Positions 793 through 63,658 of a DNA stretch of 64,000 bases are shown here, one piece after another. The stretch is from Nephrocerus scutellatus. Taxonomy: Eukaryota > Arthropoda > Insecta > Diptera > Pipunculidae. Positions within the stretch are counted from its first letter, which is position 1. Each line of letters begins with the position of its first letter. A model generated the notes under the pieces. The model worked only from the letters and a program-made list of their open reading frames with translations. It was not told the DNA's origin and searched no databases. Location of the stretch: positions 132,400,277-132,464,276 of the forward strand of contig OX352761.1 in assembly GCA_947095585.1 (NCBI GenBank). The letters run 5' to 3'. Made by a program: the position numbers and the translations under genes.

Positions 793-1043
793 CGGTGGCT
801 GACTGGCTGGTGGAATCTTGTGATCAATTTTCAGCCCACTTCCTAAAGCCCGATTTTATTCCAACTTTGCACATATGTGTATCTTCGGTGACAACATAAT
901 CTATTAAAATTTGGAAGTGATTGGGCACCGAGGGGCTCTCATATAATAAAAATTAACCCGATTTTCTTCAAATTTTATACACAGGTGTATCTCCGATTAA
1001 AAAATCTACAAGAAAACTTTTAATTGTTTTGGGTTGTTTTTTT
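793..1043 (-). repeat. repeat A, diverged copy (A6)
   Basis: The reverse complement carries the landmarks of repeat family A in order: A-rich start with 'acaaccc', 'tatgagagcccc', 'caaattttaatag', 'acacatatgtgcaaa', 'aataaaatcgggct', 'gaagtggg', 'attgatcacaagat' and a CCAG/CAGC-rich end. It lacks the central part seen in the copies at 9605 and 33936 and the terminal 'agagaattt'. It is noncoding. Confidence 0.75.
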
Positions 1044-3335: not shown

Positions 3336-5078
3336 GTGAAAAGAATCAAAAATACAGCCTCGTCGTCGATTCCAACGCTCATTTATAATGACATTCCAGT
3401 TGTCAGCTCTATAGACAAGGCAAATCTGGTTGCGGCGCATTTCGCAGCTAGCTCTACGCTTCCAGATTGTGCATTGCCGCCTCCTGCACCTCAGAATATT
3501 GAACACTGTATGGGACAGATATTTTTTCGTACTCGTGCAGTTGCTAGAGTTTTAAATGATCTCAACACTCACAAATCCGCTGGGCCACATGGTATTTCTC
3601 CACTAGTTCTGAAGAGGTGTTCTTCCAAGCTGGCATTACCATTGCGTAAGCTTTTCCATCTATCCTACTCTTCTGGACTCTTCCCGAGAAGTTGGAAAAC
3701 TGCATTTGTCCAGCCAATACCCAAAAAAGGCGAGCCGTCGTCTCCTTCTTCGTACCGACCCATAGCACTTACATCCATTCTTTCCAAGGTCATGGAAACG
3801 CTGATCAATTATCAGCTTAAGAAATATCTTGAACCCAACGAAATCCTTAGTGACCGGCAGTATGGATTTCGTGGGCAACGTTCTACTGGTGATTTGATGG
3901 TATATCTCACCGAACAGTGGAACCGATCTTTGCATCATTTTGGTGAAAGTAAAGCTGTTGCACTCGATATTTCGAAGGCATTTGACAGAGTTTGGCATCA
4001 AGCTCTTTTGTGTAAAATGCGTGCTTATGGTGTTGATGATAAATTACTTCATTGGATTAGAAGCTATCTTTTGGACCGCTTAATTCAAGTTGTTTTAGAC
4101 AGTTTCAAGTCTGAAATACACCACATAAATGCTGGCGTTCCCCAGGGGTCTGTTCTGTCCCCGACACTCTTTCTCATTTTTATTAATGATCTTTTATCTG
4201 TGACTTCTAATCCAATTCACTCTTTCGCTGACGACAGCACTCTCAGCTTCTCATATAAGTTTCAGGAACGTCCCTCCACCTCTGATGTGGAACTCAAACA
4301 ACTTTGTATGTTAAGCTCGTTTAATTCTGACCTTGACAGCATAATACAATGGGGAGTAATCAATCGAGTAGAATTTAACGCTTCCAAAACCCAATGCTGT
4401 CTCCTGTCGTCCAAGCGAATCCTTAACCCCATGCCATTATCCATGTATGGCACTTGCATCGAGGAAACTGAAAATCTCGCAATTCTCGGTATGTGCGTTA
4501 ACGACAAGCTTCGTTGGAATGACCACATATTTTCCGTCGCCAAAAACGCTGCGAAATGTTTAGGTTTTCTAGCCCGGTGCAATAAATATTTCACTCCCTC
4601 TGATCTGGCTACCATATACAAGGCTTTTATTCGCCCAAAACTTGAGTACAATTGCCATATCTGGTCTGGTGCGCCTAAGACTATTTTGCATCAGCTAGAT
4701 AGAATACAAAACCGCGCGATAAAACTTATCGGTGACGAAAATATAGCGAAATCAATAGATTCGCTTAAACACCGCAGGAAGGTTTCCTGCTTGTCACAGT
4801 TTTATCGCTTCTTCTACCAGCGGTGCTCAAGAGAAATAGCCAGCTGCATGCCACCTCTCCTTGAATTCAACCGCAATACCCGTGGCGCTCTAAATGCTCA
4901 TCAGTTTACCTTCAAGCCCATCTTCGGACGTACAGTTAAATTCAGGGATTCGTTCTTCAGCCGTACAACACGTATGTGGAATGCTCTGCCAAGCTCTGTC
5001 TTCCCACCTCACTATGATCCACAAGCATTCAAAACACAAGCTCATAGACATCTCCTCTTTTCTCCTCCTCTTCCTTAA
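3336..5078 (+). pseudogene. LINE reverse transcriptase ORF (truncated, frameshifted 5')
   Basis: The 580-codon frame encodes most of a non-LTR reverse transcriptase, the enzyme that copies element RNA into DNA at a nicked target. Visible RT motifs in order are an HKSAGPHGI block (about residue 80), SYRPIALTSILSKVME (about 140), QYGFRGQRST, ALDISKAFDRVWH (about 210), AGVPQGSVLSPTLF (about 268) and the catalytic FADD (about 298). A thumb region and a C-terminal LDRIQNRA block follow, and there is no RNase H domain. The first Met is a product of the upstream frameshift and is not a native start. The linker and endonuclease codons lie in another frame just upstream, so the protein is probably inactive despite its long ORF. 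Confidence 0.9.
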
Positions 5079-9604: not shown

Positions 9605-10023
9605 AAAAAAACAACCCATAAAAATTAAAATTTTTCTTGTAAATTCTCTAATCGGGGATACACACACACACACACACACAAACACACTGCGTGCTCTTTT
9701 GTGGCAAAATCATTCACAAATGACGCAGCGGCAGCGAACAGCGCTGTTCACAAAGCACAGAGCTCAGACTTTTCCGTGATCTGATGCGATATAGCGATAT
9801 TTAAAAATTGTATATTGGAGTCCCCAAGGGGCCGATCGCTCCAAATTTTTACAAAAAGTGTTTTCCATCGAAGACACACATGTGTACAAAATCCCCCCCC
9901 CCCCCGCTGCCCGAGGGGCCTCAAATTTTAATAGAAAGTGTTGTCTTGGGAAATATACATGTGTGCAAAATTTCAATAAAATCGGGCTGTAGGAAGTGGG
10001 TTAAAAATTGATCACAAGATTTG

Positions 10024-10055
<32 letters not shown>

Positions 10056-10089
10056 CGGGCAAGTGAAGTTAATATAGAGAATTTAAAAA
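9605..10089 (+). repeat. repeat A, copy A1 (inserted in repeat B)
   Basis: This is a near-full copy of a dispersed noncoding family. Landmarks in order are an A-run plus 'caacccataaaaatt', the inverted-repeat word TAAATTCTCTA (9644), a CA microsatellite, 'gacgcagcggcagcgaac', two related units each ending in 'catgtgt/gcaaaat...aaatcgg', 'gaagtgggttaaaaattgatc', a CCAG array, and 'tatagagaattt' plus five A. The terminal TAGAGAATTTA is the exact reverse complement of TAAATTCTCTA near the left end. A long C-run replaces part of the middle. No protein is encoded. Confidence 0.85.
9658..9688 (+). repeat. CA microsatellite inside repeat A
   Basis: This is an AC dinucleotide run at a fixed place in the repeat A family. 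Equivalent runs are at about 33985-34004 and 47410-47434. The A copies at 40744 and 44333 lack it. Confidence 0.9.
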
Positions 10090-20402: not shown

Positions 20403-23400
20403 CTGCAAGGAAAATTTATTAAAATAAAAAAAAATCTTCGACAAATGCTTTCTAATTTTAATTTGCATTAATATCAAAAGTAAAAAAAAGTAACATTTAG
20501 CTATATATTTTTTTTAGTCTAAACAAATTTTCACAACTAATGAATAATTTATTAATTCATAATTTTAGTATGTTCCACAATAATTTTTCATGTCATAGTA
20601 ATGTTTTTAATTGTGTCCTATATGAAACATGCAAACACCCAAAATACTGCAAAATAAAAAATAATAAATGTAGGGTGCAACGACACGCCCTTAAGCAAGA
20701 AATAAAAAATGATCTGCTTGCAACATTTGTTTAAATTGCGGCAAGGAGACCTTTTTAATAGATTAAATTAAAAATTACAAAAAAATACCCTTAGAATTTA
20801 ATAATTCCAAAGCTTTAGTTTAAGAAGTTAAAGAAAATTCCAGACATCATTGTAACTGTCAGCAGCAATAGGCGCACTATATTTTAGCGAAATCGGACTT
20901 TGCGCATCCTTTTAAATGGATATTTTTTGCCTTTTTAGTTTTTAACTGCATTAACTGCTATCAAATTACCCCAATGAGTATATGAGTATAAAAACCAAGT
21001 AATATCCTAGTATTTATTTAATGTTATGCTATCCCAACTTTTCAATTAGTATTGTAATCCGAAATCCAAACTTCATTATAAATGTTTTGAAAATTATATG
21101 CCTGGGTATAACCCTAAGTATTCTATAAAATAGTTAATTTTTTATAAGATTTCCAAAAAAGATTTAAGTAACAGGAACAGAAATATAGAATTATGATACT
21201 AAAGTTCATTCAACCAAAACACAGCTCAAATAGAAATCTTTATTTTTAATACTATGCTTAATATTTACTCGTATATTGATAGTAAATTTAATTTAAAAAA
21301 TTAAAAAAAAAACTTGTATATATGTAGTTATATATACACTCCGGCTTACTAGATTAGAAGCAGGCAATTTTGGGAAGTAAAAATTATCTTGCTCCCGTTA
21401 TATGGCAGTGAAAGAAACAAAAAAATGGTGAAGGAAACAGTGGTTCATGTTGAATACAATCGTGAATTCAAAAATTTTAAGACAACAAGCTCATGGTAGT
21501 TTTATAAAACTTTAACTGAATAATTAAGAATGCCAGATCTATATTCCTCTTCTTTTATTCTATCACTCTCTGTCTCTTTCTTTTATTTGCCTCTCACCAA
21601 ATAAGTCTTCAGTCTTGATTTATATTTCATAATGTTAAGTTCTAATAAAATATCATTTACAGTGCTTTCGCTTTGCTGGGTACATCCCATTTCTACAGCG
21701 TTCTTGAAGAAACCAGAGAACGCTGTAGAAATGGGACACCAAACCATCACTGTACCCAGCAAATCGAAAGCGCTGTTAGCTTGTACCTCGTATTACTACA
21801 TAGCAATAAAAGTACAATCGTTGTTTTGTGAGGTAGGTCATTTTTAAATTCTCTATATTAACTTCGCGTCGGCATGGTTCTATCGTTCGTACTGTCGTTC
21901 GGTGAAGGAATCTTGCGATAAATTTTTAACCCACTTCACTTTATAGTTTTTTTTTGTATAAAATGTTAATTTTGTAAAAGAGAAAGGTTTTTTTTAATGA
22001 ATGTAGACAATGCCAAACAATTTTTTTACTCATTTTTAAAAAAAAGAATACGGCAAAACCTTTCTTTTTATAAAATTATCTTTATATACAAAAAAATGAA
22101 CCACTCCACAAACAACGAGTGTACTTTGACTACTTCTAGTCTTATGAAGCAATATAGGTGCATGCCATTCTGACTCATTCTTGGCTTGTTCTTTTAAAAT
22201 ATTGGAATTCACCATTGCATTCAACATGAACCACTGTTTCTTCCATTTTTCTTTTTTCTCTCACTGCCATATAACGAGAGAAAGTTCATTTTTACTTCTC
22301 AAAATTGCCTGTTTCTAATCTAGTGAACCGCAGTGTATGAACAAGAGATTTTCATAAGGGTGATAAGAGAGGCGCAAGTGGGTCGAGTGGTTAATGCGTT
22401 GGACTTCTGAGCAGAAGGATCGATGTTCGAATCCCAGAAAAACCAAAAATCTTTTTCACGGTCCCACTTCTCGCGAATGTCTGAAAAACTTCTGGGAATA
22501 ATAATTGTCACGGAAAGCAGCTTTTCAATTCGCCTTTCTGATAAGGCATTAAATAAGTCCTTCCTTCCATTCGTGTACAAAAATATAACTCGCACAACAC
22601 GAATAGTCGCGAGAAGCTAGGCCTTGGATCGAATCGGTCTGTCACCGAAAATATTATTGTTGTAGTAAAAAGAGGAAAACATGTACTCGTATCTTGAATG
22701 ATTGCGTTGAAATACAATATTTGAAAAAGCTGTGAATATACGAGAATGTGACTCCAAAGTATACCGATTCCAATAAAGCTTATTATTAACGCAAATACTA
22801 AGAAAAACGTTGAGTTTTTTGATTTACTCATCACAAATTTACTTCATGGATAATGACTGGGGATTAATGCTTTGTCTTGATGACAGAAGACAGCATTGGC
22901 GTTAAAAGAATTAAATACTTCGTTTAAAAAATCAAAAAAAAAATTTAAGAATGGAATAGAATCATCATAATCATATTTGGCTCTACAACCGGGGTCCGGT
23001 CCTGGTCTCCCGTGGGTTCCGTAATAATGGAATAGAATAGAAATAGAAAATGTTGACATTGAATAGTCTTTTAAAACAATGTACAGGCATTGTTTATACA
23101 AATTGGCAAATTAAATACGACTTCGGTTGGGCGTATAGTTCGAATGAAGTAAAACGTAACAAAATAAATTAATTTACGGCGTATAAAACGACCTATTTAA
23201 CTTTTTCTTCCACATTCAATTTGCTGAAATTTATAGTTTAATGCTGATAAAAATTCTTGTAGCGTGATGGTTTAAATTAGCATCAAAATTACACAAATTC
23301 CTTGCCAATTACAAATTTAAGAGTTTGTAGGTAATTACGCGCCTGACTAATTTTTTAATTAAAAGCCTTCGTTTCGGTTTTTTTTTTTAATTAGCTAATC

Positions 23401-32400: not shown

Positions 32401-35400
32401 TTCTGTCGAATGGTAGTGGAATGCGATGCATCTATTTTAAGAGCTGAAGTTGTTGCTTGAGCGTTGCTCTGCTTTGATTGATGCATTATTTGACTTATAA
32501 GATCTAATTGTTGCCCCATTATTCCATCACTTCCAGGACTTGAAACTGGAGACGATAATGATACTGATGGTATATTGCAAAGCGACGTTATACTTGTAGT
32601 TAAGCCTGTGGTATTATTCGTTGACAAATTACTTGACTTAACGTAATTTAGACCTCCTACGTCAACGTTATCCGTTGCAAGATAAGTCCGAATACATGTG
32701 GCTCCATCAGGAGAACTGGCATCACCTATATAAAAAGAAATGAGCATTATTGAGAGGAAAAGTGTGTATGTCTATTGACATGGGTATTGAGTATTTTGTG
32801 AGTGATTTTTGTGGAGAAGCATCATGTACAATATTCCATCGAATGACCGCCTAATAAATAGAAACCAAAAAGGAACTCAAAAAACGAGAAAATGGCATTC
32901 CAACCGTCACACGCGACACAAGTCACAAGCCGAATATAAAAAATTATATTTTAGACTTAGCCACTCACAAAATTTCAGCTCTCTACATTGTGTGGAAGGT
33001 GGTTAAAGACCTCAAAGAAGTCGAAAAAAAAATGTCATCCCATCACACGGAACGTGTCGCACGCGGAATATAAAAAATGCTATTTTGGACTTAGACACTT
33101 ACAAAGTTTCAGCTCTCTAGGTCGTGTGGAAGGTGGATAAAAGGGATCTCAAAGAAGTCGAAAAAGAAAATTTCAACCTATCACACGCGCCATATGCGAA
33201 ACGCGACACACGTCACAAGCGGAATATAAAAATGCTATTATGGACTTAGACACTCATAACATTTCAACTTTATAGGTCGAGTGGAAAGTGATTAAAAAGG
33301 ACCTCAAAGTAGTCTAAAATACAGACAAAAAGGAGTCAAGTCAAGTTAAATAACACTTTTTAAAAACTTTATTACGGAACCCCAAATCAACCTCGGATAC
33401 ACTGGTGAACGAAAACGACCACGGCAACGAAAACGGTTGAACGATCTAAGAATTTTCTAATGGACGTACGCTCACTGTATAGAGCTTGAGCTGCACAGCA
33501 GCTAGTCGACACCCTGTCCAAATATAATGCTAACTTAACAGCAATCCAGGAGATGTGGTGAACTTGGAATGGCGCGTATGAATACCCACAAAGCCACCTT
33601 GGTATATCCTAATGAATTCACTCGCAAATAGATAGACCAAGTGTCAATATACCGCCGCCACAACACAAACTTGATGATGGTACGAACGTATTGAGGTACG
33701 ACTCGGACCACTTTCTTGTTGGTATGGTGCTCCGAGCGCAGATTGCATCATCACGAAAAACTGTATTCGCGAAGAATACTGTCATTAGTAATGCTGCCAC
33801 CATCTTAGACAGTAGTCGTAGAGATCGGAACGACTAGTTCGATGACGAATGTAAGCTAGCGACTGAACGTACGAATTTTGCGTACCGAGCAATGTAGCAA
33901 TATCATAGAGCGTAGGCACGCGAAGAAGAACATATAAAAAAAACAACCCATAAAAATTAAAATTTTTCTTGTAAATTCTCTCATACACACACACACACAC
34001 ACACTGCGTGCTCGTTTTGTGGCAAAATCATTCACAAATGACGCAGCGGCAGCGAACAGCGCTGCTCACAAAGCACAGAGCTCAGACTTTGCCGTGATTT
34101 GATGCGATATAGCGATATTTAAAAATTGTATATTGGGGTCCCCAAGGGGCCGATCGCTCCAAATTTTTATAAAAAGTGTTTTCCATCGAAGACACACATG
34201 TGTACAAAATTTAAAGAAAATCGGGTAAATTTTGTAAAATATTTGTATGAGAGCCCCCCGACCCCGCGGCCCGAGGGGCCTCAAATTTTAATAGAAAGTG
34301 TTGTCTTGGGAGATATACATGTGTGCAAAATTTCAATAAAATCGGGCTGTAGGAAGTGGGTTAAAAATTGATCACAAGATTTGGCCAGGCAGCCAGCCAG
34401 CCAGCCAGCCACGGGCAAGTGAAGTTAATATAGAGAATTTAAAAAACATGTCACCGGCGAAGGAAAGCAGCCTGGGAAAAGAATCTTTTCCGTGAACTAG
34501 AACAGTACAGAGAGCGAGGACCGCACCAGGTGCGAAAGTCCGCGGCATGACGCAATACATATACACCGCGTTGCACATACTGTAAAGACAAAGAGGGAAA
34601 TATTATCGCCGATCTCAAAGGCATCTTAGAGCAACGGGAAGAGTACTTTTATCAGTTGCTAAATGGTCAGCTAACTAAGGAATTGGATGCTCAACCAATG
34701 ACCGATGAACACACTATGCTGCCGCCACCAAGCATAGACGAAGATAGCAGAGCGATCAATCGTCTTAAAAACAACAAGGCCTCGACATCAGATTGTATCC
34801 CAGCGGAGCTGATTAAGTTAAAAGGTCCCACACTACACCAAGCAATTCATGAAATAATAGTGCAAGTATGGGAGGAAGAAACGATACCAGAAGACTGACA
34901 AAGAGGCATCCTGGCATCCATACTTAAGAAAGAGATATCACAACGTGCAGCAATTATCGTGGTATAACGCTTATAAGATTTTCTCCTCAATCCTTCAAGA
35001 CAGGATAGCCCCATACGCTTAAGCCATCATTGGCAAATCAACAACTGATCAGTTTTACACCCTTAGGTGATGGGAAAATGTCTAGAGTTTCAAAACTTAC
35101 TACACCACCTTTTAATGGTCTTTAAAGCCACCTATGATAGCCTAGCCAGAGTAGAACTTTATAAAGTCATGAGCGAATTCAGCGTCCCAAATAAACTGAC
35201 ACGACTATGTAGATTGGCCATTACCAATATTATCAGCAGAGTAAAAATATCCGAATCACTATCAAGCCTATTAACATCTTAAACGGTCGCCGACAAGTTG
35301 ATGGACTGGCCTGCGATTCCTTCAACCTGGCGTTGCAGAAAGAAAGGACACTCCGATCTAACGGCAATAAGTCCATCAGATACTGGCTCACGGAGACGAT

Positions 35401-40743: not shown

Positions 40744-41177
40744 AAAAAAAAACAACCCATAAAAATTCAATTTTTTTATGTAAATTCTCCAATAAACAAG
40801 AGTATACTGAATTTCACTATAAACGCTGAAAATAAAAACATTTTCGAAGCACTGCAACCCAACAACAAAAAAACCCCAATCGTAAAACAAGCAGCGCTGC
40901 TCACAGCGCACCACGCACACAGTCATCATAGTATGACATGATATGATGCCGCTATATGGGAAAAACAATGTATATGGGAGCCCCCTGATCCCGCGGCCTG
41001 ATCACTCTTAAATTTTAATAAAGTATTATTAAAGAAAGTATTATCACCGGAAATACACATGTGTGCAATGTTTCAATAAAATCGAGCTTTAGCAAGTGGG
41101 TTAAAAAATGATCATAAGATCTGACCAGCCAGCCAGCCAGCCACGGGCACGCGAAGTTAATATAGAGAATTTAAAAA
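40744..41177 (+). repeat. repeat A, copy A3
   Basis: Landmarks are present in order, without the CA run: 'caacccataaaaatt', 'gtaaattctcc', 'cagcgctgctcacag', 'gagccccctgatcccgcgg', 'caaattttaataaag' (with an extra short duplication), 'acacatgtgtgcaa', 'gcaagtgggttaaaaa', CCAG array, 'tatagagaattt'. It sits between a LOA-like fragment and a SINE head. Confidence 0.85.
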
Positions 41178-41345
41178 TAAACTTGGGCTCAGTGGAAATG
41201 AGCATGGCTACTGAGCAGGGGGTTCGAGGTTCGAATCCCAGTAACACCAAAAGTATTTTCACGGTGTCCCACCTCTCGCGAATGGGTGACAAACGTTCCG
41301 AGAATAATAACTTGTCACGGAAAGCACGTACACTGGACCCAGTAT
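41178..41345 (+). repeat. SINE, 5' part
   Basis: tRNA-like head with GGCTCAGTGGAAATGAGC and B-box GGTTCGAATCCC, then 'cacctctcgcgaatggg' and 'aataacttgtcacggaaagc'. It matches 45366-45180 (minus) and 22373-22530. The 3' half is replaced by unrelated sequence after about 41325. Confidence 0.75.
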
Positions 41346-44332: not shown

Positions 44333-44746
44333 AAAAAAAACAACCCATAAAAATTAAAAATAAAATTCTCTAATAAACAAAAGTATACTGAATTCCACTA
44401 TAAATGCTGAAATATAAAAACACACGAAGCACTGCAACCTAACAAAAAAACAACCCCAATCGTAAAGCAAGCAGCGCTGCCCACACTAGATAAAGCAGAA
44501 CGCACACAGAACACAGTTATTATAGTATGAAATGATCTGATACCTGGAAAAAAATTTGTATTGGAGCCCCCCGACCCCGCGGCCCGATTACTCTCAAATT
44601 TTAATAGATTTTTCACCGGAAATATACACGTGTGCAAAATTTTAATAAAATCGGGCTTTGGGAAGTGGGTTAAAAATTGATCACAAAAGCTGACCAGCCA
44701 GCCCGCCAGCCACGGGCACGCGAAGTAAATATAGAGAATTTAAAAA
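44333..44746 (+). repeat. repeat A, copy A4 (inserted in a LINE)
   Basis: Copy with 'caacccataaaaatt', 'aaaattctcta', 'gcagcgctgcccaca', 'ggagccccccgaccccgcgg', 'caaattttaatag', 'acacgtgtgcaaaat', 'gggaagtgggttaaaaattg' and 'tatagagaattt' + AAAAA. The flanks join to 'cattaat|aaaaa|tgagaaag', which is the uninterrupted LINE sequence seen at 4170-4195 (inverted). This gives a readable empty site. Confidence 0.9.
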
Positions 44747-45056: not shown

Positions 45057-45366
45057 AATAATAATAATATTCGGCGCGACAGACCGTTGCGGTCCAAGGC
45101 CTACCTTCTCGCGACCATTTGTGTTGTGCGTGTATATTTTTGGACACAAATGAAAGGGACCTACAATTTAAGGCCGGATCCGAACGGCGAATTGAAAAGC
45201 ATTCCGTGACAAGTTATTACTCTTGGAACGTTTGTCGACCATTCTCGAGAGGTAGGACACCGTGAAAAAAATACTTTTGGTGTTACTGGGATTCGTACCA
45301 CGATCCTCCTGCTCAGTAGCCATGCGCATTTCCACTGAGTCACGGCGCCCGGCACACGGAGCAACG
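45057..45366 (-). repeat. SINE, full-length copy
   Basis: The minus strand has a tRNA-like head (GACTCAGTGG and GGTACGAATCCC), 'ttttttcacggtgtcc', 'aataacttgtcacgg', 'aattcgccgttcggatccgg' and 'gtcccttt...aaaaatatac', then 'ggtcgcgagaaggtaggcc'. It ends in an ATT tail of several units. It is about 310 bases long and abuts the LINE at 45055. Confidence 0.8.
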
Positions 45367-47355: not shown

Positions 47356-47765
47356 AAAAAAACAACCCATAAAAATTAAAATTTTTCTTGTAAATTCTCT
47401 AATCGGGGATACACACACACACACACACACACACTGCGTGCTCGTTTTGTGGCAAAATTATCCACCAAATGACGCAGCGACAGCGAACAGCGCTGCACAC
47501 AAAGCACAGAGCTTGTATACGGGGGTCCCCAGGGGCCGATCACTCCAAATTTTTACAAAAAGTGTTTTCCATCGAAGACACACATGTGTAGAAAATTTCA
47601 AGAAAATCGGCCTCAAATTTTAATAGAAAGTATTGTCACCGGAAATATACATGTGTGCAAAATTTCAATAAAATCGGGCTATGGGAAGTGGGTTAAAAAT
47701 TGATCAGAAAATCTGGCCAGCCAGCCAGCCACGTGCACGCGAAATTAATATAGAGAATTTAAAAA
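47356..47765 (+). repeat. repeat A, copy A5
   Basis: 'caacccataaaaatt', TAAATTCTCTA, CA run, 'gacgcagcgacagcgaac', 'catgtgtagaaaatttcaag', 'catgtgtgcaaaatttcaa', 'gggaagtgggttaaaaattg', CCAG array, 'tatagagaattt' + AAAAA. The middle 'gagagcccc' segment is deleted. Confidence 0.87.
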
Positions 47766-48829: not shown

Positions 48830-49770
48830 GAGCGACAATGTCCTCACCCCCAAAACCAGCTAGCCACCAAGTACCATTCAAAACATGACTATTCATCTCA
48901 GCGACCCCGAAAACTATTTGATCGACAATAATATCAGTCCCCATAGGGGGATACAACTCATGCATAGAAGTGTCCTACCAACACTATTCATTTCAGTGAC
49001 CCCGAGAACTATAGAACGGACACTAATATCGGTCATCCCCTCGGCTATCTAACCCATCCCCCTAGAGCTATCTTACCATCACCATTCTACTCAACGACCC
49101 CGAAAACCATATAATCGACACTAATATCGGTCACCCCATCTCCCCCTAGAGCTGTCTTACCATCACCATTCACTTCAGCCACCCCGAAAACTATAGAATC
49201 GACACTAATATCGGTCACACCACCCCACCACGCAGGTATCGACCCCATCCCCCTCGAGCTGTCTTACCATCAACATTCAACTCAGCGACCCCGAAAACCA
49301 TATACTCGACACTAATATCGGTCAACCCCCTCCACCCCCGTCAGCTATGGATCCAATCACCATAGGGCTGTCTTACCATCGCCATTCAGCTCAGCGACCC
49401 CGAAAACCACTAATATCCCTCCCCCCTCAGTTATGCACCTCAACTGCTTACCATTTCCATTCAACTCAACGACCCCGAAAACCATAGAATCGACACTAAT
49501 ATCGGGCACCCTCCCCCCTCAGTTATGGACCTCAACTGCTTACCATCACCATTCAACTCAACGACCCCGAAAACCATAGAATCGACACTAATATCGGTCA
49601 CCCCCCCCCCCCACCACGCCCTTCCGATCCGAAAACCATAGAATCGACACTAATATCGGTTACCCTCCCTCCTGCGGGGATACATAACTCATCCAAAAGA
49701 GTTTACAACCAACACTATTCATCACGGCGATACCGAAAACTGTGGGTCCGACACTAATATCGGCTGCCCC
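48830..49770. repeat. minisatellite inside Helitron A
   Basis: At least eight full copies of the core GACACTAATATCGG, plus degenerate ones at 48918 and 49412, lie between about 49017 and 49765. Each is preceded by 'cgaccccgaaaacc(a/c)ta' and followed by a C-rich run. Most units also contain 'ttaccatcaccattca'. Units vary from about 60 to 120 bases because of partial deletions. There is no coding frame. Confidence 0.88.
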
Positions 49771-51394: not shown

Positions 51395-51632
51395 TGCCGT
51401 GGCGGACCGTTATGGTTCAGGGCCTAGGTTCCCGCGACCATTCCTGTTTTGCGTTTTATATTTTTCCACACAAATGAAATGGATCTACAATTCCAAAGTG
51501 TATCTGAATTGCGAATTGAGAAGCTTTTCATGACAGTAATTACTCCCGGATGTTTGTCTGACATTTGTGAGAGGTGGGACCATTAAAACTATTTTTGGTG
51601 TTTTTCTGGAAATTTTTTGAAACTCGTGCTGA
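51395..51632 (-). repeat. SINE, 3' two-thirds
   Basis: Minus strand: 'ggtgttacc'-like body words, 'aattactgtcatgaaaagc', 'ttctcaattcgcaattcaga', 'aaaaatataaaacgc', 'ggtcgcgggaacctaggccc' and an ATTATTATTA tail. It is collinear with 45240-45057. The tRNA-like head is degenerate. Confidence 0.7.
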
Positions 51633-54862: not shown

Positions 54863-56868
54863 TCCGCTTATGGTAACCTGCAAAGAGGTTTATAGGAACC
54901 AGGAGGTATGCTTTCGGTTATATAAACAAAACCCCACTGTGGAAAACCGAACCAAATTTAGACGAGTCAAAAATTATTGCAATGCCTACCTTAGACGAGT
55001 CAAATTCGACTACGACCAAAAAATGAGACAAAAAATACTTCAATATCCCAGAGGTAGTAAGAATTTTTGGTCATTCGTCTTCGCCTCGTCTTCAATTCCA
55101 ACGCTCATTCACAATGACATTCCAACTGTCAGTTCTACAGACAAGGCCAATCTGCTTGCTTCACATTTCGCAGCTAGCTCCACGCTACCAGATTGCGCGT
55201 TGTCGCCGCCTGTACTTTCAAGAGTCAAATATTCTATGGGACAAATCTACTTTCGTACTCGTCAAGTAGCTAGAGTATTAAATGATCTCAAGATTCATAA
55301 ATCTGCTGGGCCTGATGGTATTCCCGCTATAGGTTTGAAGAGGTGTTCTTCAACGTTGGCATTGCCACGGCGCAGGCATTTCCATTTCTCCTATTCTTCT
55401 GGATTCTTCCCAAGAAATTGGAAAACAGCCTTTGTCCAGCCTGTTCCCAAAAAAAGGCGAACCGTCATCTCTCTCCCCATACCGATCCATTGCGCTAAAA
55501 TCCATACTTTCTAAAGTCATGGAAACGTTGATCAATCGTAATCTTATGCAATACCTTGAATCGCGTGAAATCCTTAGCGACCAGCAATACGGTTTTCGAA
55601 GGCAACGTTCTACAGGGGATCTGATGGCATATCTCACCGAAAAGTGGAACCAGTCTATTCACAAATTTGGTGAAAGTTGTTGCACTCGATATTTTCAGGG
55701 GATTTGACAGAGTCCGGCATCAAGCTTATTTGTCGAAAATAAATACCTATGTAATTGATAAGACCCTGCACAACACAATGACATTCCAACTGTCAGTTCT
55801 ATAGGCAAGGCCAATCTGCTTGCTTCACATTTCGCAGCTAGCTCCACGCTTCCAGATTACGCGTTGTCGCCGCCTGTACTTTCAAGAGTCAAATATTCTA
55901 TGGGACAAATCTAATACCTTTCTGACCGTTCAATTAAGGTCGTATTGGACGGTTTTAAATCTAGTGTTCACCGCATAAGCGCCGGTATTCCCCAAGGCTC
56001 TGCTTTGTCTCCGGCACTCTTTCTCATTTTCATTAATGATCTCCTACCCGCTTTTAATCTAATTCATTCCTTCGCTGACGACAGCACTCTTAGCTTTTCA
56101 TATGAGTTCGTGCTTTCTGCGCGCCCCTCTTCATCGCAAGTGGAACTCGAACAACAACGTATATCAAGCACGTTAAATTCTGACCTTGACAGCATAACAA
56201 GGTGGGGGCTACATAATAGAGTTGAATTTAACGCTTCCAAAACTCAATGCCGTCTTCTGTCGTCCAATCGTAATTTTAAACCCCAACCTTTATGCTTGAA
56301 TGGATCTTGCATCGAAGAAACTGAAAAACTCGCAATTCTCGATATGTGCCCCAACAACAATCTTCGTTGGAACGACCACATATTTGCCAACACCAAGAAT
56401 GCTGCGAAATGTTTAGGTTTCCTAAAACAATGATAGATGTACTTCACTCCTTCAGTTCTGGCTACTATTTACAATGCATATAACTATTTGCCCTAAAGTT
56501 GAATACAACTGTGATGTCTGGGCAGGTGCTCCCAAACCACATTACATCTACTCGACAGAATTCAGAACCGCGCGATTCGAAGATATCGAACGTACCAACC
56601 AATTTAGAGATTCCTTCTTTAGCCACACAATAATTATGTGGAATGAATTGCCCGACTCTATGTTTTCGCATTTTTATGATCATTTATGGTCATTCAAAAC
56701 ACATGTTTCTTACCTTTTCCCCTCCTTAATTTCCAAACGCCTAATTTAATATTTTCTTAAATGTTTGCATTGTTACCTTTTCCCCTCCTTAATTTCCAAA
56801 CGCCCACGTTGTCCAATCAGTATAAGGGTACAAACCCCTTGAGCGTGTGTACATTATAAAAAAGGTAG
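54863..56868 (+). pseudogene. CR1/Jockey-group LINE, dead copy L2 (within duplication unit 1)
   Basis: Collinear with 3150-5155: linker (EVCFRLYKQNPTVENRTKF), RT entry (IHKSAGPDGIP), a shifted segment (KKGEPSSLSPYRSIALKSILS in another frame), QYGFRRQRSTGDLM, AGIPQGSALSPALF and the catalytic FADDST (about 56070). The C-terminus and a 3' hairpin (56824-56840) follow. Inactivating changes are a seven-A run at about 55449-55455 where L1 has six, a frameshift in the ALDIS block near 55680, a 138-bp internal duplication and stops near 56430. It could not be active. Confidence 0.9.
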
Positions 56869-57284
56869 GTATTGAAACAAATTATAAAAAATGTAGGTAT
56901 TGAAACAAAACACCCATTACTACATATGTTTTAGAACCGGTCCGATAATGCATGCAGAACCGGGTAACCTTTTGTCGGGTACCCCAGTAACCCAGATTTT
57001 TCAGAGAAGTGCAACCCGGTTCTTACAAACGTTCAAAACCTGTTAATTTAGTAGTACATTTAAAATCTACAATTTATTAATAGAACGTTTAAGATTTTTA
57101 TCTTTTTACTACAAATATTCCAAAAAAGAAGACTGCAACTACAACATAGTTCATGGATAGGTATTATTGGTGAAATTAAAATTTAACTTATTATTATTTT
57201 AAAAGAGAAGTTCGAAGTTTGCAAGCAAAGTCGAATCGAAAAAACTCCAGTATGGAAGCATTTTTTACGCAAAGTATATGGCAT
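55070..57284 (+). repeat. tandem duplication unit 1 (2,215 bp)
   Basis: This segment is followed directly by what looks like an exact copy at 57285-59499: every ORF within it recurs with the same residues 2,215 bases later. It runs from inside the LINE linker (after ...TTTTTGGTC) to inside a hAT fragment (before ...GTC). The three bases GTC are shared by both breakpoints and the junction. Confidence 0.95.
55776..55913 (+). repeat. 138-bp internal duplication within the LINE
   Basis: From 'aacacaatgacattcc' to 'gggacaaatcta' this repeats 55113-55250 with few differences (for example 'tctataggc' for 'tctacagac' and 'gattacgc' for 'gattgcgc'). It replaces the WIRSY segment between KTLH and SDRSIKVV. 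The copy recurs at 57991-58128 in unit 2. Confidence 0.88.
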
Positions 57285-59499
57285 GTCATTCGTCTTCGCC
57301 TCGTCTTCAATTCCAACGCTCATTCACAATGACATTCCAACTGTCAGTTCTACAGACAAGGCCAATCTGCTTGCTTCACATTTCGCAGCTAGCTCCACGC
57401 TACCAGATTGCGCGTTGTCGCCGCCTGTACTTTCAAGAGTCAAATATTCTATGGGACAAATCTACTTTCGTACTCGTCAAGTAGCTAGAGTATTAAATGA
57501 TCTCAAGATTCATAAATCTGCTGGGCCTGATGGTATTCCCGCTATAGGTTTGAAGAGGTGTTCTTCAACGTTGGCATTGCCACGGCGCAGGCATTTCCAT
57601 TTCTCCTATTCTTCTGGATTCTTCCCAAGAAATTGGAAAACAGCCTTTGTCCAGCCTGTTCCCAAAAAAAGGCGAACCGTCATCTCTCTCCCCATACCGA
57701 TCCATTGCGCTAAAATCCATACTTTCTAAAGTCATGGAAACGTTGATCAATCGTAATCTTATGCAATACCTTGAATCGCGTGAAATCCTTAGCGACCAGC
57801 AATACGGTTTTCGAAGGCAACGTTCTACAGGGGATCTGATGGCATATCTCACCGAAAAGTGGAACCAGTCTATTCACAAATTTGGTGAAAGTTGTTGCAC
57901 TCGATATTTTCAGGGGATTTGACAGAGTCCGGCATCAAGCTTATTTGTCGAAAATAAATACCTATGTAATTGATAAGACCCTGCACAACACAATGACATT
58001 CCAACTGTCAGTTCTATAGGCAAGGCCAATCTGCTTGCTTCACATTTCGCAGCTAGCTCCACGCTTCCAGATTACGCGTTGTCGCCGCCTGTACTTTCAA
58101 GAGTCAAATATTCTATGGGACAAATCTAATACCTTTCTGACCGTTCAATTAAGGTCGTATTGGACGGTTTTAAATCTAGTGTTCACCGCATAAGCGCCGG
58201 TATTCCCCAAGGCTCTGCTTTGTCTCCGGCACTCTTTCTCATTTTCATTAATGATCTCCTACCCGCTTTTAATCTAATTCATTCCTTCGCTGACGACAGC
58301 ACTCTTAGCTTTTCATATGAGTTCGTGCTTTCTGCGCGCCCCTCTTCATCGCAAGTGGAACTCGAACAACAACGTATATCAAGCACGTTAAATTCTGACC
58401 TTGACAGCATAACAAGGTGGGGGCTACATAATAGAGTTGAATTTAACGCTTCCAAAACTCAATGCCGTCTTCTGTCGTCCAATCGTAATTTTAAACCCCA
58501 ACCTTTATGCTTGAATGGATCTTGCATCGAAGAAACTGAAAAACTCGCAATTCTCGATATGTGCCCCAACAACAATCTTCGTTGGAACGACCACATATTT
58601 GCCAACACCAAGAATGCTGCGAAATGTTTAGGTTTCCTAAAACAATGATAGATGTACTTCACTCCTTCAGTTCTGGCTACTATTTACAATGCATATAACT
58701 ATTTGCCCTAAAGTTGAATACAACTGTGATGTCTGGGCAGGTGCTCCCAAACCACATTACATCTACTCGACAGAATTCAGAACCGCGCGATTCGAAGATA
58801 TCGAACGTACCAACCAATTTAGAGATTCCTTCTTTAGCCACACAATAATTATGTGGAATGAATTGCCCGACTCTATGTTTTCGCATTTTTATGATCATTT
58901 ATGGTCATTCAAAACACATGTTTCTTACCTTTTCCCCTCCTTAATTTCCAAACGCCTAATTTAATATTTTCTTAAATGTTTGCATTGTTACCTTTTCCCC
59001 TCCTTAATTTCCAAACGCCCACGTTGTCCAATCAGTATAAGGGTACAAACCCCTTGAGCGTGTGTACATTATAAAAAAGGTAGGTATTGAAACAAATTAT
59101 AAAAAATGTAGGTATTGAAACAAAACACCCATTACTACATATGTTTTAGAACCGGTCCGATAATGCATGCAGAACCGGGTAACCTTTTGTCGGGTACCCC
59201 AGTAACCCAGATTTTTCAGAGAAGTGCAACCCGGTTCTTACAAACGTTCAAAACCTGTTAATTTAGTAGTACATTTAAAATCTACAATTTATTAATAGAA
59301 CGTTTAAGATTTTTATCTTTTTACTACAAATATTCCAAAAAAGAAGACTGCAACTACAACATAGTTCATGGATAGGTATTATTGGTGAAATTAAAATTTA
59401 ACTTATTATTATTTTAAAAGAGAAGTTCGAAGTTTGCAAGCAAAGTCGAATCGAAAAAACTCCAGTATGGAAGCATTTTTTACGCAAAGTATATGGCAT
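57285..59499 (+). repeat. tandem duplication unit 2 (2,215 bp)
   Basis: Second copy of 55070-57284 in the same direction. I found no difference in the lines that I compared. It contains the LINE from the FVFASSSIPTL segment to the 3' tail (57288-59083), AT-rich sequence and the first part of the hAT fragment. The junction at 57285 fuses a hAT start (SIWHV) to LINE sequence. Confidence 0.95.
57288..59083 (+). pseudogene. CR1/Jockey-group LINE, duplicated dead copy
   Basis: Identical in reading frames to 55073-56868: the same poly-A frameshift, the same internal 138-bp duplication and the same stops. Because it starts at the duplication junction it lacks the linker codons. Being a copy of an already broken element, it arose by DNA duplication (or assembly error) and not by retrotransposition. 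Confidence 0.9.
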
Positions 59500-62356: not shown

Positions 62357-63658
62357 TAACGGGTGTTTTTTTAAGAGGTTGCCGATTTTTTTTTTGAATA
62401 AAACACATATAAAATTATGAAATGACCAAAATTTTTTTTTATTTGGTAGATAATTTTTTGGCATTTAACATTTAAACACAATTTCTGGCATATGGCTACC
62501 ACGACTATTTTTCACAAATGTCATTCTGGAGGTCCAATTTTCCAGCACTTTTTCAAGCATTTGAGGGCGTATGTCAGCAATGACACGTTGAATATTGGTT
62601 TCCAAAGCGTCAATCGATTGAGGTTTATCCACATAAACCAATGACTTCACGTATCCCCACAAAAAGTAATCGAGTGGCGTCAAATCGCACGAACGCGGAG
62701 GCCAATTCACCGGACCATTTCTCGAAATAATGTTGTCGTTGAAAGTTTCTTTCAATAAGTCGATTGTTTCACGTGCTGTATGGCAAGTGGCACCATCTTG
62801 TTGAAACCACATTTCATCCATATCCATATCTTCAAGATTTGACAACAAAAACTCATTTAACATGGTTCTGTATCGATTTCCATTCACGGTAACGCGTCGT
62901 CCTTCCTCATTTTTAAAGAAATATGGACCGATGATCCCACCAGCCCATAGACCGCACCAAACAGTACATTTATCAGGATGCATTGGTAATTCTTGAACGG
63001 CGTGTGGATTATCTTTGCTCCAAATGCGACAATTTTGTTTGTTGACGTATCCATTTAACAAAAAATGCGCCTCATCACTGAAGAGAATTTTACGGTAAAA
63101 AAATGGATTAAATTGATTTAACGACCAATCACTGAATTCACGGCGCAAACGATGGTCGTGTGGCTTTAATTCTTGCACCAATTGAATTTTGTATGGCACC
63201 AAACCCAAATCTTTACGTAAAATTTTCCATAAAGTCGATGGACAAAGTCCAATTTGCTGAGCACGACGACGAATCGATAAATTGTCGTTTTCTTCGACAC
63301 TGGCCTCAACGACAGCAATATTTTCTTCTGTACGAACTCTTCTCATTCTTGTCGGTGGCTTGGCATCCAAAAGAGTGAATGTAGACCGAAATTTGGTAAT
63401 TACGTTCTTTATGGTGGTCTCTGACGGACGATTATGTGCACCATAAAATTCACGAAGTTCTCTATAAACATTTTTAATTGAACACTGATTTTGAAAATAA
63501 ATTTCCACGATTTGAAAACGTTGTTCTGGAGTTAACCTATTCATAATGATTTGCCAAACAATACTGAGTAGAAATGCCACTTTGAGCTGTCAAAACAACT
63601 GTCATAAAATAAAACGACATCTATCGGAAAAACAAACCTCCTAAAAAAACACCCATTA
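62357..63658 (-). mobile_element. Tc1/mariner-like transposon, apparently complete
   Basis: The left end TAACGGGTGTTTTTTTAAGA (62357 on) and the right end, read inward, TAATGGGTGTTTTTTTAGGA (63658 back), form inverted repeats of about 25 bp. Both are flanked by TA (62355-62356 and 63659-63660), the target duplication of this superfamily. TIRs starting two bases further in are equally possible because the ends read TATA. The 1.3-kb length is normal, and it encodes one uninterrupted transposase. Confidence 0.9.
62465..63544 (-). CDS. Tc1/mariner-like transposase, intact ORF
   Basis: DDE-type transposase that would cut and paste its element at TA sites. The open frame extends upstream to 63580, but the ATG at 63544 (MNRLTPEQRFQIVEIYF) is the likely start and gives 359 residues. 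Domains: N-terminal helix-turn-helix (EQRFQIVEIYF... and RPSETTIKNVITKF, DUF4817-like), then a second HTH (SIRRRAQQIGLCPSTLWKIL). The catalytic core has ILFSDEAHF (first Asp), WFQQDGATCHT (second Asp) and RSCDLTPLDYFLWG (third Asp). By count 36 residues separate the last two Asp. The protein ends SHMPEIVFKC, a usual C-terminus for this group. No stop or frameshift is seen. Confidence 0.92.
   Translation of the reverse strand: MNRLTPEQRFQIVEIYFQNQCSIKNVYRELREFYGAHNRPSETTIKNVITKFRSTFTLLDAKPPTRMRRVRTEENIAVVEASVEENDNLSIRRRAQQIGLCPSTLWKILRKDLGLVPYKIQLVQELKPHDHRLRREFSDWSLNQFNPFFYRKILFSDEAHFLLNGYVNKQNCRIWSKDNPHAVQELPMHPDKCTVWCGLWAGGIIGPYFFKNEEGRRVTVNGNRYRTMLNEFLLSNLEDMDMDEMWFQQDGATCHTARETIDLLKETFNDNIISRNGPVNWPPRSCDLTPLDYFLWGYVKSLVYVDKPQSIDALETNIQRVIADIRPQMLEKVLENWTSRMTFVKNSRGSHMPEIVFKC

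Follow-up and report, generated by a model that had tools for sequence, protein, structure and literature searches.

Repeat family A of Nephrocerus scutellatus, very probably a DINE-1-like HINE family with head-to-tail joints between its copies

Repeat family A, present in several copies in a 64-kb stretch of the genome of Nephrocerus scutellatus (the whole stretch analysed, hereafter the window), is, with a probability of about 0.9, a HINE, i.e. a DINE-1-like, non-coding rolling-circle transposon which would be moved in trans by a Helentron-type Rep/helicase. It is a new family within this known class, membership of the class being in itself ordinary, and it is young and very abundant in this genome. 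A Helentron-derived, DINE-1-like nature had been proposed in an earlier note, made from the letters of the window; it is supported, in window and genome copies, by inverted subterminal words, a 3' hairpin, a T-rich target, microsatellites and the lack of a target duplication in the copies informative on this point. The natural orientation of the family is opposite to that used in the note, and corresponds to the minus strand for the copy at 33936. The window spans 132,400,277-132,464,276 of contig C1.

In the natural orientation the layout of the element is TTTTT-AAATTCTCTATA ... TAGAGAATTTA-CAAG-[AAAAATT TT AATTTTT]-ATGGGTTG-T(n), with TTTTT-AAATTCTCTATATTAACTTC as its start and TAGAGAATTTA-CAAG-AAAAATTTTAATTTTT-ATGGGTTG-T(n) as its finish; the signatures of the 5' and 3' ends are TTTTTAAATTCTCTATA and TAGAGAATTTA(N20-30)ATGGGTTGT, respectively. 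Seven copies with defined ends had been described. All seven places were recovered by local alignment and are reported in Table 1, but both ends were found in five of them (9605, 33936, 40744, 44333 and 47356), the copy at 793 having only one recognisable end and that at 21845 being only an end fragment of about 100 nt. The two end words, with up to 2-3 mismatches, occur at seven and six places of the window. Shuffling gives expectations of 2.08 and 1.24, and neither observed number was reached in any of 100 shuffles; one of the seven places (32277) is not a family end.

Table 1. Family A copies, their component parts and the paralogous empty sites within the window.
Feature	Position	Strand	Remark
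Full HINE copy of the finding	33936..34445	- (natural orientation)	
Element-borne 5' pentamer TTTTT	34441..34445	-	AAAAA on +; A-run here 34441-34446
5' subterminal inverted word TAAATTCTCT	34432..34441	-	
3' subterminal inverted word AGAGAATTTA	33972..33981	-	
3' hairpin AAAAATT-TT-AATTTTT	33952..33967	-	8 nt before terminal T-run
3'-tip terminal T-run	33936..33943	-	A8 on +; probably host T-run plus few own Ts
Internal unit 1	34160..34225	+	81.8% to unit 2 over 66 nt
Internal unit 2	34282..34346	+	
CCAG microsatellite	34384..34411	+	
Full copy	9605..10089	- (natural orientation)	
Full copy	40744..41177	- (natural orientation)	
Full copy	44333..44746	-	Inside LINE, hairpin degraded
Full copy	47356..47765	- (natural orientation)	
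Diverged copy	796..1043	+ (natural orientation)	Without recognisable 5' subterminal word
Fragment	21841..21944	+ (natural orientation)	About 100 nt of 5' (T5) end
LINE paralogue	4149..4329	-	Empty site of 44333 copy
Repeat B paralogue	33125..33304	+	Weaker empty site of 9605 copy

The inverted subterminal words are exact over 9-11 nt in five of the six window copies with a 3' end (11 nt in 9605 and 47356, 10 in 33936 and 44333, 9 in 40744, none in 793; 500 shuffles each, P 0.002-0.022). They are unequally placed, the 5' word lying 4 nt from the terminus and the 3' word 30-37 nt from it, T-run included. A hairpin is found at the 3' end only, with a stem of 7-8 bp located 5-8 nt ahead of the terminal T-run in four of the six copies (P 0.006-0.034); the best stem of the 44333 copy is 4 bp long (P 0.71, by shuffles), and the 793 copy has neither a good hairpin nor a recognisable subterminal word at its T-end. 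Among the 3' tips of the loci examined 20 hairpin variants were collected, in which changes fall mostly in the 4-nt spacer and in the loop, the hairpin being otherwise near-constant; no clear compensatory pair was seen among these 20. The interior carries CA and CCAG microsatellites and the two related 66-nt units, all as previously noted, and, consistent with the reported lack of an ORF, 33936-34445 holds no stop-to-stop frame of at least 120 aa. A longer subfamily, in which the family ends enclose another inner segment, about 500 bp long, is represented by L039, L050, L051 and L063, and forms units of about 890 bp in L050.

Apart from family A, the window contains an open frame of 374 aa with a DUF4817 helix-turn-helix domain (62465-63589, minus strand), which by eye we take to be a mariner-like transposase. 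LINE frames are directly duplicated at 55339-58648, with an offset of 2,215 nt and identical translations, and satellite-like tandem arrays with units of 84-191 nt are located at 48971-49610. For an ELM2-type gene a protein search gave seven relatives, of which the named two belong to flies, being a TRERF1 family protein of Megaselia abdita and one from Hermetia illucens.

The 25-nt 5' end, with any of three pentamer types, has 13,402 exact matches in the 613-Mb genome (9 contigs): 12,117 with TTTTT, 1,085 with TTATT and 200 with TTCTT or TTGTT, while each pattern read backwards, used as a control, has none. A 23-nt end with three Ts is found 12,620 times genome-wide and, by comparison with the 12,117 five-T ends, 96% of these ends have five Ts. 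Divergence was evaluated on 28 full-length copies, which differ by 0.2-1.8% (mean 0.84%) from their own majority consensus; since they were chosen as the best matches to one copy, they are biased to young elements. Of 42 full-length matches listed, these 28 were read as single copies, eight more lie in tandem or nested settings (L070-L075) and six were left out; the 28 include the window's own 33936 copy, and a few are inside other family members. Variable termini, named in advance as evidence against the DINE-1-like reading, were not encountered in this set of best full-length matches, where the ends are constant except for A-run length and point changes.

The same 28 copies define the target, here read on the strand showing it as A-runs. 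The run beside GAATTT, at the 5' end, is A5 in 15 copies, A6-A9 in 11 and AA in two, and an A5 or longer run adjoins this end in 26 of 28 full-length copies, compared with 0.87% of random window positions. Before CAACCC the run is A7-A10 in 25 copies, A12 in one, A5 in one and interrupted by a G in one. The target is T-rich and has two or more Ts on either side (A2 or more on the right in 28 of 28; A5 or more on the left in 27 of 28, the other one having a G next to the start). At the 5' end the A-run is bordered by T in 11 copies, by C in 10 and by G in seven. The empty sites agree in part with those described in the note. That the 44333 copy interrupts a LINE was borne out by an exact empty site, ATTAAT-AAAAA-TGAG, in the alignment to its paralogue (86%). 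For the 9605 copy, said to interrupt repeat B, a paralogous empty site was found at 68% identity, but it reads GAAGTcgAAAAAGAAAA, and not GAAGT-AAAAA-GAAAA as stated, a word for which no match with 0-1 mismatch was obtained. At L007, paralogues about 93-94% alike over 214 bp show, among the matches listed, GACAAC-A8-CGAC in several cases, the run being shorter in L042.

To which ends the Ts should be assigned is called unclear in the HINE literature (PMC4067079, section 6). In the loci examined, 111 distinct end-word matches are followed by AAAAA in 89 cases, by AATAA in 11 and by single other pentamers in 11, several of these last not being true ends. Genome-wide, TTATT is about ten times as frequent as the mean of TTCTT and TTGTT (1,085 vs 200 for both together), more than point mutation by itself would account for. 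AATAA copies with an independent left flank are informative in this respect, and all five of them (L054, L061, the first copy of L063, L075 and L093) lack AATAA on that flank. Left out were L041, which is ambiguous because its left flank resembles AATAA; L043 and L045, bordered on that side by another copy or by degraded sequence, and in neither case by AATAA; the copies inside the L063-L065 array, each of which adjoins on its left the end of a neighbouring copy; and three places for which no start was found, L007:2916, L055 and L069. The one-sided AATAA and the TTATT excess make the pentamer look element-borne and argue against a 5-bp target duplication. Most likely, in the informative AATAA copies to which this result applies, the pentamer travels with the element and no 5-bp duplication is made, a target duplication and the element's own T5 looking alike in pure A-runs. 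A second-choice AATAA target might still be the source of the variant pentamer; the idea that A5 is simply host target was set aside as less likely, in view of the TTATT variant.

These data also bear on other classes of mobile elements. The presence of inverted words close to either end, together with an A5 that flanks most insertions on both sides and resembles an AAAAA duplication, could suggest a MITE, derived from a cut-and-paste transposon and having imperfect inverted repeats plus an A/T target duplication of 5 bp. This is very unlikely, however, given the unequal placement of the words, the hairpin at one end only and the AATAA found at one end and absent at the other in 5/5 informative copies; terminal inverted repeats with a constant target duplication were not found. 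The chances are slimmer still for a SINE-like retroposon that LINE machinery would move and whose A-tail would follow GAATTT. The oligo-A at the GAATTT end and the A-rich targets would fit it, but A-runs are present at both ends and no flanking duplication beyond the As is seen in informative copies. Inverted subterminal words and a hairpin, moreover, are not SINE features. A SINE match, which the earlier note would have held against its own proposal, was not obtained: neither a tRNA gene (ARAGORN) nor an Rfam family was reported in the whole window, a weak indication as to a tRNA-, 7SL- or 5S-like head, as the tRNA-like repeat at 41188-41325 also went unreported. This short repeat, tRNA-like by eye for its GGTTCGAATC word, starts right beside the 40744 copy, is not called a tRNA by ARAGORN, and recurs at 45199-45339, 22404-22519 and 51523-51602 (77-89% alike).

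Among rolling-circle elements, canonical Helitrons, as outlined in the relevant parts of PMC4067079 and PMC5876387, share with family A the 3' hairpin, the lack of target duplication and head-to-tail joints. They differ by a 5' TC, a 3' CTRR and insertion between A and T, none of which is found here, the ends being TTTTTAAATTC and ATGGGTTGT(n). Features of HINEs are instead present, namely subterminal inverted repeats, which in that class measure about 11-15 bp, a short palindrome near the 3' end, located in the class 8-35 nt from it, and a non-coding sequence with defined ends. DINE-1 in the strict sense is further marked by a short inverted repeat adjoining its 5' subTIR and by the Drosophila core. 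The HINEs described in the corresponding sections of Thomas et al. 2014 (PMC4067079) are likewise non-coding, with subterminal inverted repeats near both ends, a 3' palindrome, a T-rich target which is not modified, boundary Ts varying in number at both ends, and microsatellites or tandem repeats. In mite HINEs the 5' word lies 2-4 nt from the end, which fits the 4 nt of family A, while the 3' word, at 30-37 nt, falls a little short of their 38-60 nt. Further differences from that description are that the subterminal words are not obviously palindromic here, and that the 5' Ts are attributed to the element by means of the inherited T5/TTATT variant.

By description, family A can also be set beside the dipteran Helitron2_Cv and Helitron3_Cv of Calliphora vicina, presented in PMC3630058 as DINE-1-like and non-autonomous. 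These are 395-750 bp long and have subTIRs of 11 bp, protosatellite repeats and, at the 3' end, a short hairpin with a reported stem of 9 bp. The Cg_HINEs of the Pacific oyster, in the account of PMC7492417, have in common with it internal tandem repeats, a T-rich preference, no target duplication and a link to satellite-like DNA; host and sequence are different, and the satellite-like arrays are internal there, whereas here whole copies are also arranged head to tail. DINE-1-like elements are also known from Lepidoptera (PMC4344730). Collections of viral and genome contigs, searched with exact patterns, and phages, searched by distant blastn, gave no match, as expected for a eukaryotic repeat. 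A literature text search with the end words showed no transposon paper among the titles listed, and one on HINEs or Helentrons in Diptera none on family A among the titles listed; both searches covered papers, and an earlier description is possible.

Rep/helicase genes are present in this genome, where the Helitron_like_N domain has 151 matches (150 of 622 candidates scored), against none in 14 control genomes. At L076 an open frame of 1,100 aa combines a Helitron_like_N domain with a PIF1 helicase domain; about 240 nt downstream of it lies a family copy. The search recommended in the earlier note, for a Rep-helicase Helentron with the same ends, was unsuccessful in the loci read: none of the 36 loci scanned (30 with 1.5 kb on each side, some overlapping, and including L069, a LINE locus) has a Rep gene enclosed by two family ends. 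L022, L027, L028, L030, L034-L036, L038, L076 and L098-L100 were rejected as partners, the family end in the displayed sequences being, by eye, a separate copy or located upstream of, or opposite to, the Rep gene. Helitron_like_N matches themselves form tandem series, whose periods are close to 8.2 kb and 5.6 kb, at C4:62506810-62531974 and C2:66224312-66236116 (L016-L019, L027-L029, L098 and L099).

Two exact patterns revealed 742 copy-to-copy joints genome-wide (480 + 262). The head-to-tail pattern AGAGAATTTA-N(2-24)-CAACCCATAAAA has 480 matches (246 + 234) and its backwards control none; the head-to-head pattern TTTTATGGGTTG-N(2-24)-CAACCCATAAAA has none in the genome. The remaining 262 sites match AGAGAATTTA-N(2-24)-TAAATTCTCT, a pattern which is its own reverse complement; in the 50 of these listed the spacer appears hairpin-like by eye, meaning a head-to-tail arrangement in which the start of a copy is joined to another copy's hairpin, and no plain tail-to-tail joint was seen. 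L070 and L074 are clear self-insertions into the T5 of an older copy's hairpin, their empty site being the element's own hairpin ATAAAAATT. At L070 the sequence runs from the older tip CAACCCAT through A6 into the new copy, and after the GAATTT-AAAAA of the new copy comes TTAAAATTTTTCTTG, the rest of the older copy. Amplified arrays also occur, with a 320-bp period at C1:32886455-32887128 and a period of about 6.8 kb from C1:69274110. In L069, a tandem unit of 6.8 kb, a reverse-transcriptase gene is accompanied by family copies. At L071:785-830 the 3' tip is doubled (CAACCCAT-A7-CAACCC), with no older-copy remainder on the other side, which may reflect a nested donor with read-through at its 3' end.

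With an oriented T-run as the target, a head-to-tail polarity does not by itself prove rolling-circle concatemers; landing on such runs predicts the same bias, which was consequently dropped as sole proof. The odds are even that the family carries its own landing pads, the 5' T5 and the hairpin T5, and that oriented one-strand insertion makes old copies the seeds of strictly head-to-tail arrays, alongside rolling-circle concatemers. Somewhat below an even chance is an explanation, confined to the arrays, in which the joints are mainly rolling-circle concatemers followed by unequal crossing-over, and not insertions into older copies. By eye, 7 As is the commonest joint (about 31 of 100 joints listed), as the element's own T5 plus two own Ts would give, and 19 of the same 100 carry AATAA, at least ten of them in two tandem series. 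The doubled tip of L071 and the 320-bp array, which looks amplified, point in the same direction, and head-to-tail joints of Helitrons are cited as rolling-circle signs in the part of PMC5876387 dealing with them. The order of older tip, new copy and older hairpin remainder at L070 and L074 is instead that of self-insertion, which also predicts the 262 joints running into a hairpin-like spacer, unlike a simple circle joint. With two tracts in each of the 13,402 copies, and an overall 6.1 million T5 tracts as extrapolated from the window's 638, random landing on the family's own T5 tracts would give roughly 60 joints. The 742 found are exact matches only, and their excess mixes self-insertion, concatemers and array growth.

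On the reading of family A as a HINE, an enzyme may nick at the 5' T-tract, one strand would be copied through to the 3' hairpin, and the copied strand would be joined next to a T-run of the host that has the same polarity, the target not being duplicated. New copies could land on old ones because the element has T5 tracts of the target polarity, at its 5' end and in the second arm of the hairpin, and would do so head to tail, building arrays.

The family is useful in being young and numerous, in having readable empty sites and in carrying an inherited variant of its T5, and its assignment classifies a very abundant repeat. It provides a large, young, chromosome-scale set of HINE insertions, in which the ambiguity of T ownership (PMC4067079) becomes testable through the inherited T5 variant, while the head-to-tail polarity and the two clear self-insertions offer a testable account of how tandem arrays are seeded. 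If this account is true, a dispersed rolling-circle element would have a built-in route to satellite-like DNA.
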